This document shows, piece after piece, positions 30,962 through 55,097 of a DNA stretch of 64,000 nucleotides. Origin of the DNA: Humidesulfovibrio sp. (GTDB taxonomy: Bacteria; Desulfobacterota; Desulfovibrionia; Desulfovibrionales; Desulfovibrionaceae); NCBI RefSeq assembly GCF_030689645.1, contig NZ_JAUYFU010000077.1, forward strand, positions 1 to 64,000, in the 5' to 3' direction. Both the position numbers and the translations under genes were made by a program. Position 1 is the first letter of the stretch, and every line of letters begins with the position of its first letter. Below the pieces are notes generated by a model, which made no database searches, had not been told where the DNA came from, and worked only from the letters and a program-made list of their open reading frames with translations.

Positions 30962-31213
30962 ATGGCCCCGATAGTGAAAGTTTATGCGCTGTCCACCTGC
31001 ATTCATTGCAAGAAGGCCAAGGAATATCTGGACCTGTGCGGTGTTAAGTACGACTGCGTGCACGTGGACCAGCTCACCGGCGAGGAGCGCAAGATGACCG
31101 TTGAGGAAGTGAAGAAGTTCAACCCCTCGGTGTCGTTCCCCACCATCATCATCAATGGCGAGGCCCTGATTGGGTTCAACCAGGAGAAGATCGACGAGGC
31201 GCTCAAAAAATGA
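30962..31213 (+). CDS. glutaredoxin-family protein
   Basis: MAPIVKVYALSTCIHCKKAKEYLDLCGVKYDCVHVD...SFPTIIINGEALIGFNQEKIDEALKK; SD AGGAG upstream. Confidence 0.88.
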   Translation: MAPIVKVYALSTCIHCKKAKEYLDLCGVKYDCVHVDQLTGEERKMTVEEVKKFNPSVSFPTIIINGEALIGFNQEKIDEALKK

Positions 31214-31542
31214 ACGCGGAAAAACTCTATGAATCCCTGAAAACAATTCAGGAACCTAAGGGCTATTTCTTTAACCCCGACATGAGCATGACCATGCCGC
31301 TCATGGAGAGCCTGCTCATCAACAAGGACCGGATGGGGTACATGGCGTGCCCCTGCCGCCTTGCCAACGGCACCTTCGACGCCGACCGCGACATCGTGTG
31401 CCCGTGCGAGTATCGGGAGCAGGACGTGAAGGAGTATGGGGCGTGCTTCTGCGGCCTGTACGTGAGCAAAGAGTGGCTTGCAGGGACGATTGAGAAGGTT
31501 GTGGTGCCGGAGAGAAGGCCGGTGGAGAAGATTTTGTGGTGA
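31210..31542 (+). CDS. ftrB: ferredoxin-thioredoxin reductase catalytic (beta) subunit family
   Basis: CPCRLANG...CPCEYRE...CFCGLYVSKEW Cys pattern. Confidence 0.92.
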   Translation: MNAEKLYESLKTIQEPKGYFFNPDMSMTMPLMESLLINKDRMGYMACPCRLANGTFDADRDIVCPCEYREQDVKEYGACFCGLYVSKEWLAGTIEKVVVPERRPVEKILW

Positions 31543-32561
31543 GCAAAACCAAATCCTCACGAAAAACAATGCCATGCCCCAGGCATAAAGTCACTATTGG
31601 TAGCCATACGGGGTTTTCACTGGGCCCATTGCCATGGGACGAAGAGCTTCTAATTACAGCATATTTTAACGAGTTTACTAAAGCAACGTCTGCGGTTGAA
31701 GAGCATCCTGGCTTTATTATTCAAGATGACCTCGACTCACTTGGATTTTCGTTAAGGCTATTCAAAAGAGCTGCTTATGACTTTTTTCAAGCAGTACGAG
31801 ATTTCAAAAAAGAAGAACGGGCCGGTGAACTATTCTTCAAGAAAAACGACACACGATTTGCAACACTTGAATTTAATATCGTTAAATCTTTGTATGTTTA
31901 TTCATCAACATTAATGTCTGTTGTTTGTCATGTACGTAGAATAGCGCAAAGATATGACACAACAAGCTTCAGCAAACAGACAACCCAATTCTCTACAGAT
32001 GAAAGGCATAGATTCATTCAAGATTTAAGAAATTGTCTTGAACATGTTCGGCTAATTAAGCCCAATTGGCAGATTACGCATTCCATTGGAGAAGACAACA
32101 AGATACGTTTCCTCCTAGACCATCGCCATCTTTCATCTTTTGAGAACTGGACGCCATTTGCTTTAGCATACATTGAGAGGCACAAAGAGGGTATAGATGT
32201 TGTGCAAACAATCCGAGGCCATATCACTCAATTCTTTCGTCACCAAAATTCATTCCTCTTATGGCTCAACAAACATACCCTAGAATGCAGATCAGATTAC
32301 CTAAGATACAGTCACTACCTTAAAGCCTTGGGAACAAAATCTCACTGGAACATGGTTCTTACTCAAATAGTTATTCCAAACAAAATAAATGTATATGACC
32401 ACCTACACATGTACCTCACTCTAGAAGAGCTTGAGGGCGTGAGAAAATTACCTCATAAATCAAAAGAACAAGTTGATGCCATAATATCCCACATGGACGA
32501 ATACAACGCATGCGATGAAAAACTCAGAGCAATTGTATATGCGGCGTTTAATGTAACATGA
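31536..32561 (+). CDS. uncharacterised HEPN-like protein (RX4H motif RNCLEH)
   Basis: AT-rich ORF with GTG start overlapping ftrB stop; all-helical-looking with FIQDLRNCLEHVRL. Confidence 0.6.
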   Translation: MVSKTKSSRKTMPCPRHKVTIGSHTGFSLGPLPWDEELLITAYFNEFTKATSAVEEHPGFIIQDDLDSLGFSLRLFKRAAYDFFQAVRDFKKEERAGELFFKKNDTRFATLEFNIVKSLYVYSSTLMSVVCHVRRIAQRYDTTSFSKQTTQFSTDERHRFIQDLRNCLEHVRLIKPNWQITHSIGEDNKIRFLLDHRHLSSFENWTPFALAYIERHKEGIDVVQTIRGHITQFFRHQNSFLLWLNKHTLECRSDYLRYSHYLKALGTKSHWNMVLTQIVIPNKINVYDHLHMYLTLEELEGVRKLPHKSKEQVDAIISHMDEYNACDEKLRAIVYAAFNVT

Positions 32562-32637
32562 GCGAAAGAATTCGCTTAGCACAAGTTAAACACTAGAAAC
32601 ACGGAACGCCCGCAAGCAGACCGACAACAAATATAAA

Positions 32638-32671
32638 AAGCCCCGGCCTGCTTTCACAGACCGGGGCTTTA
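32638..32671. terminator. bidirectional intrinsic terminator
   Basis: AAAGCCCCGG-N14-CCGGGGCTTT between convergent genes. Confidence 0.8.
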
Positions 32672-32690
32672 AATGTGCTTCGGGTATGAT

Positions 32691-32960
32691 TTAGTAGCGA
32701 CGGGGCGGACGAGCTTCGCGCTCCTGAGCCTCGTTGACCTTCAGGGCGCGGCCGCCGAGCTCTTTGCCGTTCAGGGCCTGCACGGCCTCGAGGGCGTCAG
32801 CGTCGTTCATCTCGACGAAGCCGAAACCGCGGAAGCGGCCGGTCTCACGGTCGTTGATGAACTTAACGGACAGGACTTCGCCGTACTGGGCGAACACGTT
32901 GCGCAGGTCATCCTCAGAGGTGCTGAAGGCGATGTTTCCGACATAGATAGACTTAGGCAT
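32691..32960 (-). CDS. RRM-domain RNA-binding protein
   Basis: KSIYVGNIAFSTSEDDLRNVFAQYGEV...RFRGFGFVEM RNP motifs. Confidence 0.95.
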   Translation of the reverse strand: MPKSIYVGNIAFSTSEDDLRNVFAQYGEVLSVKFINDRETGRFRGFGFVEMNDADALEAVQALNGKELGGRALKVNEAQEREARPPRRY

Positions 32961-33191
32961 GCGATAAAACTCCTAAAAAAAACAGTAAAAATTGTCGCCC
33001 ATTCCCGCCTGAGCAAATAGCATCCGGGTAGCGTGTCCAGATGGAGCTAACTAACCCCGTACCTGGCAGAAGTAAAGCCCTGAAACCACAAAATCTAAAA
33101 AAAAACACTACGGAGGCCATATTTCTTTTTCTACGCTGCCAAGCAAAGACTCATTCCGCAAAAAAATTGGGCGACTGACCAGAAAAAGGCT

Positions 33192-34556
33192 TTATACGCC
33201 GAAGCGGTTCTTCAGCCACTCGGCAAAGGCGTCGCGGGCGCGCTGCCCGTAGAGTTCCTTGCGAACCTTTTTACCCGCCCGACGGTTCAAATCAGGCATG
33301 AGGCCGAAGTGCGCGTTGGACGGCTGAAAGCGTTTCACCGGCGGGGTGCGCAGGTGGCTCAAAAGCGCGCCCAGGGCCGTGATGTTCGGCGGCGGCGCAA
33401 GGGGCTTCCCTGCCAGCTTCGCAGCCAGCGATAGCCCCACCCACAAACCGCACGCGGCGGACTCAAGATAGCCCTCCACCCCGGTGATCTGCCCAGCCAG
33501 GTGCACGTTCGGACGCGTCTTGAGCGCCAGTTCCTCGTTCAGCACGGTGGGCGCGTCGACAAAGGTATTGCGGTGGATGCTGCCCAGACGCAAAAACTCG
33601 GCATTCTCCAGGCCCGGAATCATGCGAAACACGCGCTGCTGCTCCGGGTACTTGAGCTTGGTCTGAAAGCCCACGAGGTTGAAGGCCGTCTTCTCGGCGT
33701 TCTCTGCTCGCAACTGAACCACGGCAAAGGCTTCCTCACCCGTGCGCGGATTGGGCAACCCCACGGGCTTGAGCGGCCCGAAGCAGAGCGTGAGCCGTCC
33801 GCGCTCCGCCATTTCCTCCACAGGCAGGCAGCCCTCGAAGTGGATCTCCTTCTCGAAATCGTGCGGAGCGACCTTTTCCGCCGCCATGAGTGCTTCCAGA
33901 AAGGCGTCGTATTGGGCCTCGGTCATGGGGCAATTGAGGTAATCGTCCTCCTCTGGCCGATAGCGGCTGCCCCAGAAGGCGATGTCCAGGTCCACACTGT
34001 CGCGGCTGATGATGGGCGCAATGGCGTCGTAAAAATATAGGCGCTTGCCGCCCTCAATCTCCGTCGCCTTGGCCAGGCTGACGGCAAGGGCGTCGCTTGC
34101 AAGCGGACCTGCGGCGACGACCACGGCGTCGAAGCCTTGAATCTCCGGCGCATCCAGGCTCTCAACCTCTTGGCGCACAACCTCTATGTTCGGATCGGCC
34201 TCGATCTGCGCGGTGATGTATTCGGCAAAGCGGTCGCGGTCCACGGCCAAGGCCTTGCCTGCGGGAATGCGGGTAGCGTCCGCAGCCTGCATGACCATGC
34301 TGCCCAGTTCGCGCATCTCAACCTTGAGGATGCCGATGGCCGTGGTCAGCTCATCGGAGCGCAGGGAGTTGGAGCACACAAGCTCGGCCAGGTGCCCGGT
34401 GGTGTGCGCCGGCGACGATTTCTCCGGGCGCATCTCGAACAAGCGCACAACAACGCCAGCCCTGGCCAGGGCCAAGGCGCATTCACACCCGGCCAGTCCG
34501 CCTCCGACTATGGCCACCCGCTTTCCCGACACCTGAGCCTCGTTGTTATCCGGCAT
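33192..34556 (-). CDS. trmFO: FADH2/methylenetetrahydrofolate-dependent tRNA uracil-5-methyltransferase
   Basis: [24 protein letters not shown]...[27 protein letters not shown]...[16 protein letters not shown]. Confidence 0.95.
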
Positions 34557-55003: not shown

Positions 55004-55097
55004 GGAAGCGTATCGTCACCGGTGTGGCGCCCAGACTTCAAATCTGGTGTGTGGTCGAGAGGTCACAGGTAGGTTCGACTCCTATACGCTTCCGCCA
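55004..55097 (+). tRNA. selC: tRNA-SeC (anticodon TCA)
   Basis: 94 nt incl. CCA; GGAAGCG acceptor/CGCTTCC, anticodon arm CAGACTTCAAATCTG, long variable arm. Confidence 0.95.

Follow-up and report, generated by a model that had tools for sequence, protein, structure and literature searches.

The locus

The window, meaning the whole 64-kb stretch of DNA analysed here, contains an ORF of 341 aa (31536..32561, + strand) that immediately follows a glutaredoxin-ftrB gene pair. The glutaredoxin gene (PF00462; 30866..31213, +) is the upstream partner of ftrB (31210..31542, +), which encodes the catalytic beta chain of ferredoxin-thioredoxin reductase (PF02943). On its 3′ side the ORF is followed by a terminator-like hairpin with T/A flanks (32637..32670, strand unassigned), a convergent core gene for an RRM RNA-binding protein (PF00076; 32691..32960, −), and a conserved flanking gene of the GidA/TrmFO family (33192..34556, −). 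The ftrB product also gives a weak match, below cut-off, to the NCBIfam double-selenoprotein model FtrB_double_U; a tRNA-Sec gene lies in the same window, at 55004-55097. The gene content would suit a sulfate-reducing deltaproteobacterium.

The initial annotation described the ORF as AT-rich and unlike its GC-rich flanks, which is the case: its GC content is 0.39, against 0.61 for the window, 0.62-0.67 for most flanking genes and 0.51-0.56 for grx and ftrB, and positions 31401-33300 are the stretch richest in AT within the 64 kb. The overlap of a GTG start with the ftrB stop codon, also reported there, is equally evident: the stop is TGA 31540-31542, and GTG 31536 and GTG 31539 both lie over the 3′ end of ftrB, where the latter forms GTGA with the stop. 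A GGAGAAG sequence inside ftrB (31524..31530, +) reads as a possible ribosome-binding site for the overlapping GTG. Whether translation starts at GTG 31536, GTG 31539 or ATG 31569 is uncertain, because homologs show conservation only from about residue 29 onward, and the model gives residues 1-25 a pLDDT below 50. The gene is a lone one, as the same annotation had remarked in pointing out the absence of an antitoxin partner: there is no further ORF up to the terminator and the RRM gene.

A one-gene hotspot at the ftrB stop codon

In the host genus, sampled at one genome per species, ftrB was recovered in 13 of 15 genomes, and in 11 of these 13 species a single AT-rich gene separates the ftrB stop codon from a GC-rich hairpin terminator (the RRM gene at the right is beyond the available sequence in three of the 13). 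Where both borders are on one contig, in seven occupied relatives, the ftrB-RRM gap is 0.84-1.28 kb long with a GC content of 0.38-0.44. In the other two species the site is empty, with the hairpin, the same right border, about 80 bp past the ftrB stop. The left border is the stop codon itself: nucleotide conservation, as the majority share across species, is 0.84 in the 60 nt up to it and 0.41 in the 60 nt after it. In most genomes the other measured distances separating the block's anchor genes are small or hardly vary, with a few small exceptions (the abcA-sbp values are artefacts of paralogous hits). By BLASTP, the cargo genes are all unrelated to one another except for one pair. The ftrB-terminator site is a replacement-type, genus-specific hotspot, occupied by one gene at a time and with its turnover observed between species. 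The two species with an empty site (L061, genome G009, and L069, genome G013) have a second RRM copy beside the first.

Core defence hotspots and replacement islands (PMC10250203; PMC5635113; PMC10121019) are likewise framed by conserved core genes and contain defence-like cargo that varies, and the concept of a replacement-type hotspot is set out in PMC10250203. The ftrB site differs from them in having only one gene per site, in the absence of a tRNA gene at the window site, and in its sharp borders, a stop codon at the left and a terminator at the right. It is also common to the species of a genus, whereas the known hotspots are shared by strains of a species.

The first annotators had suggested that the gene could be an effector controlled through the redox (glutaredoxin/FTR) transcript. 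On such a reading it would be the third functional component of the grx-ftrB operon, an RNase effector switched by redox state, and the start-codon overlap and shared strand would fit. Comparison with related genomes does not support this idea. Sister species carry mostly unrelated genes in the same place, and two carry none; in two further genera, g5 and g14, none of the 21 grx-ftrB loci read has an RRM neighbor or comparable cargo; and homologs of the window gene adjoin lgt, der or hldE-like genes. Since 10 of the 11 cargo genes are co-directional with ftrB and begin no more than about 60 nt from its stop codon, the most fitting view of the overlap with ftrB is that it provides a convenient place for expression. 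A redox-controlled effector is therefore unlikely, and the operon-member reading as a whole is hardly credible.

How genes come and go at such a site is a separate question. An integron or transposon cassette was rejected, as no mobility gene was seen in the slots and the window site has no direct or terminal inverted repeat, as was a tRNA-linked island at the window site, where there is no tRNA; here the contrast is with the site downstream of der in genus g5 (L117-L146), a second variable site, which has integrase-like genes in several genomes. Another possibility is an unrecognised one-gene mobile unit that targets the ftrB stop codon or the terminator. The very sharp left junction, the restriction to one gene per site and the mostly unrelated cargos would all fit such a unit; against it, no integrase or other mobility gene was seen in the slots of relatives, the cargo ends have no visible sequence in common, and the window site lacks an integrase, a direct repeat, a tRNA and a long terminal inverted repeat, all of which makes it quite unlikely. 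Half of the hotspots described elsewhere have no recognisable mobile elements, and their flanking core genes recombine more often (PMC5635113); the simplest explanation for the ftrB slot would therefore be that homologous recombination between conserved flanks swaps the cargo. Single-gene exchange at so precise a border, with no visible mobility functions, is a question that the site raises in its own right.

Occupants of the slot

Besides the HEPN-like gene of the window, the slots of the 11 species hold a varied set. Two species have related genes for transmembrane/coiled-coil proteins, which are 39.9% identical (their ftrB genes are 79% identical). Others hold genes for a transmembrane protein with a response-regulator receiver (5.5e-5, below the curated cut-off), a TIR-TM protein (encoded on the opposite strand to ftrB; PADLOC E 9.9e-58), a HEPN-domain protein (PF05168, 1.2e-3, below cut-off, with a plasmid homolog of 37.5% identity annotated as HEPN), an Mrr-type protein (Mrr_cat, 7.6e-6), and a nuclease-like and a metallopeptidase-like protein, the latter with a HELGH motif, both judged by eye. 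The remaining two encode a 375-aa protein with the motif RNSVSH (L067:2320-3447) and a 292-aa protein with RNELIH (L070:2663-3541), neither belonging to any Pfam family. The 292-aa and the 375-aa protein have plasmid homologs, in Acinetobacter and Burkholderia and in Rubrobacter and Bradyrhizobium, among which the R and H of the R-x4-H motif are invariant, and some of which lie near BrnT/A, RelE or AbiEii genes.

Defence families among the cargos are clear for TIR-TM (the only cargo clearly scored by PADLOC) and Mrr_cat, and marginal for the Pfam HEPN protein; the rest include the two R-x4-H proteins and several unnamed ones, and the names of several cargos rest on motif reading. Because 11 of 13 species have one foreign gene here, mostly a different one and several of them resembling known anti-virus genes, the slot is worth searching for new bacterial immune genes. 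It offers at least seven uncharacterised candidates, including the new HEPN-like family, and a very clean test of guilt by association, in that each occupant of a one-gene slot should act alone. A bolder extension is that the ftrB-terminator interval is a dedicated immune slot, in which each lineage keeps one self-contained anti-phage gene that the grx-ftrB promoter drives and that an undescribed mechanism exchanges whole, every unnamed occupant being a new single-gene defence system. We regard this as doubtful.

Homologs and motif conservation

The 341-aa protein has no match that would name it in Pfam, PADLOC, PHROG or NCBIfam (hmmscan against the four libraries), and no sequence relative in the PDB. 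A whole-genome search gave two divergent homologs, and a profile of the three sequences found seven more, all in the host's taxonomic family; family-wide, nine of 288 genomes have a match. Eight of the nine homologs in total come from that family, and the phylum-wide sample yielded a convincing match in the host genome and one other only. When genome contigs, viral contigs, phages and plasmids were scanned directly with the single protein, the first two homologs or alignment A1, the result was either nothing or the two known loci. Genome matches at E 0.01-0.1 were left out of the homolog set; the one among them that was examined, L025, was rejected as resembling a transport protein of the MlaD type.

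In the ten-row alignment of these sequences (A2), each homolog shares 16-26% identity with the window protein. Invariant columns are limited to G59, R165, F192 and I213, with F120, N166, H170 and W178 nearly so. Three of these eight positions make up the motif R165-N166-x3-H170 (RNCLEH; residues 165-170, 32028..32045, +), predicted as a HEPN RNase motif: R165 is found in 10 of 10 rows, N166 in nine (with D in the tenth), and H170 in nine (with K in the tenth). The variants are RNCLEH, RNNLNH, RNEMSH, RNNVSH, RNYSVH (in two near-identical rows), RNIISH, RDAMSH and RNRLNH, with RNCVLK as the exception. The presence of R[ND]xxxH by itself is weak evidence, since shuffling 11 hotspot proteins at constant composition leaves about 0.5 of them with it by chance; its conservation across homologs as divergent as these is not. 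The initial annotation had singled out RNCLEH as a HEPN-like RN-x3-H motif and proposed its conservation among homologs as one test; with R in 10 of 10 rows, N or D in 10 of 10 and H in nine of 10, the motif makes up the conserved core of a family that had no name and looks HEPN-like.

Structure and HEPN membership

HEPN domains carry an Rx4-6H motif, with a polar residue after the R, at the end of helix 3 and the start of the loop to helix 4 (Anantharaman et al., 2013; PMC3710099). An AF2 model built on A2 (mean pLDDT 80.8) has helices at residues 58-95, 105-139, 143-153 and 156-168, a beta-hairpin at 177-194, and a long helix at 222-279. The end of one helix carries R165 and the loop that follows carries H170, with pLDDT values of 83 and 78 in the blocks around the motif and lower ones just after it. 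The motif is thus placed in the model as in known HEPN domains, which makes a HEPN-type RNase likely.

Searches by fold and profile gave no significant match to a HEPN family. Neither outcome that the initial annotation had named as refuting, a model lacking the four-helix bundle or a motif not kept among homologs, was obtained, although no fold search returned a significant hit. With the full model, Foldseek against PDB and BFVD found generic long-helix proteins only, with no PDB match below E 0.3. A core-only model without the long C-terminal helix was of low confidence; in its search, chains of the HepT toxin of MntA-HepT (6m6u, 7bxo) ranked 2, 4 and 6, at non-significant E values of 0.37-0.81. 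Alignments by hhalign with two small locally built sets (DUF4145 and AbiU2) were also non-significant, their local alignments lying near or at the motif. HEPN families are mutually very divergent. For that reason the missing profile match leaves room for membership.

An all-helical protein of unrelated fold, in which RN-x3-H is merely structural, would account for the lack of a significant HEPN match by any method and for the one homolog without the H (RNCVLK), and such a protein would still be horizontally acquired cargo. It is nevertheless unlikely, as conservation falls precisely on the R, polar N/D and H of HEPN domains, at the expected helix-3/loop position. We are fairly confident that the 341-aa protein is a HEPN protein, most likely a metal-independent HEPN-type RNase. 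With the HEPN superfamily (PMC3710099) it would share the Rx4-6H motif and polar residue at the helix-3 end or loop, a helical bundle, and ties to Abi genes and defence loci; it differs in that sequence comparison links it to none of the catalogued families, and in its additional beta-hairpin and 58-residue C-terminal helix.

Proposed function and gene neighborhoods of the homologs

Its company in the slot, its motif and its apparent mobility suggest a role in defence. The explanation that we favor, with moderate confidence for the whole of it, is that the 341-aa protein represents a new HEPN-like family and is a lone RNase effector in a one-gene defence hotspot. It would need no partner to bring about abortive infection or growth arrest, likely by metal-independent RNase activity. 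The slot, which extends from the ftrB stop to the terminator that the convergent RRM gene also uses, would allow cargo to be co-transcribed from the grx-ftrB promoter with neither neighbor harmed. The suggestion of a single-gene defence effector, already made in the initial annotation, is plausible in this setting, given that the slot is a hotspot of defence-like genes and that one homolog lies in an operon with Abi_alpha.

That homolog, in L038, is also relevant to whether the protein is instead the toxin of a toxin-antitoxin pair, with an antitoxin that is unlinked, is an RNA or is formed by the protein's own long C-terminal part. Pairing is common among HEPN toxins, as in HepT-MntA (PMC7641770), and the L038 gene is followed by two small genes in an operon. 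The window gene differs from MntA-HepT in having no adjacent MNT antitoxin gene; there is no room for a partner gene between ftrB and the terminator, the slots of relatives hold a single gene each, and most of the homologs are also lone, making a paired toxin quite unlikely next to the lone effector favored above.

Like the window gene, the homologs are AT-rich (GC 0.31-0.42 in all those for which composition was computed) and often stand amid GC-rich genes. The L038 homolog is the first of a three-gene run (L038:9685-10973 plus the homolog itself), of which the second gene is DUF4145/HepT-like (a weak match, E 0.014-0.016) and the third Abi_alpha (E 1.3e-26); this may be a three-gene defence unit, and it sits at the der site of genus g5.
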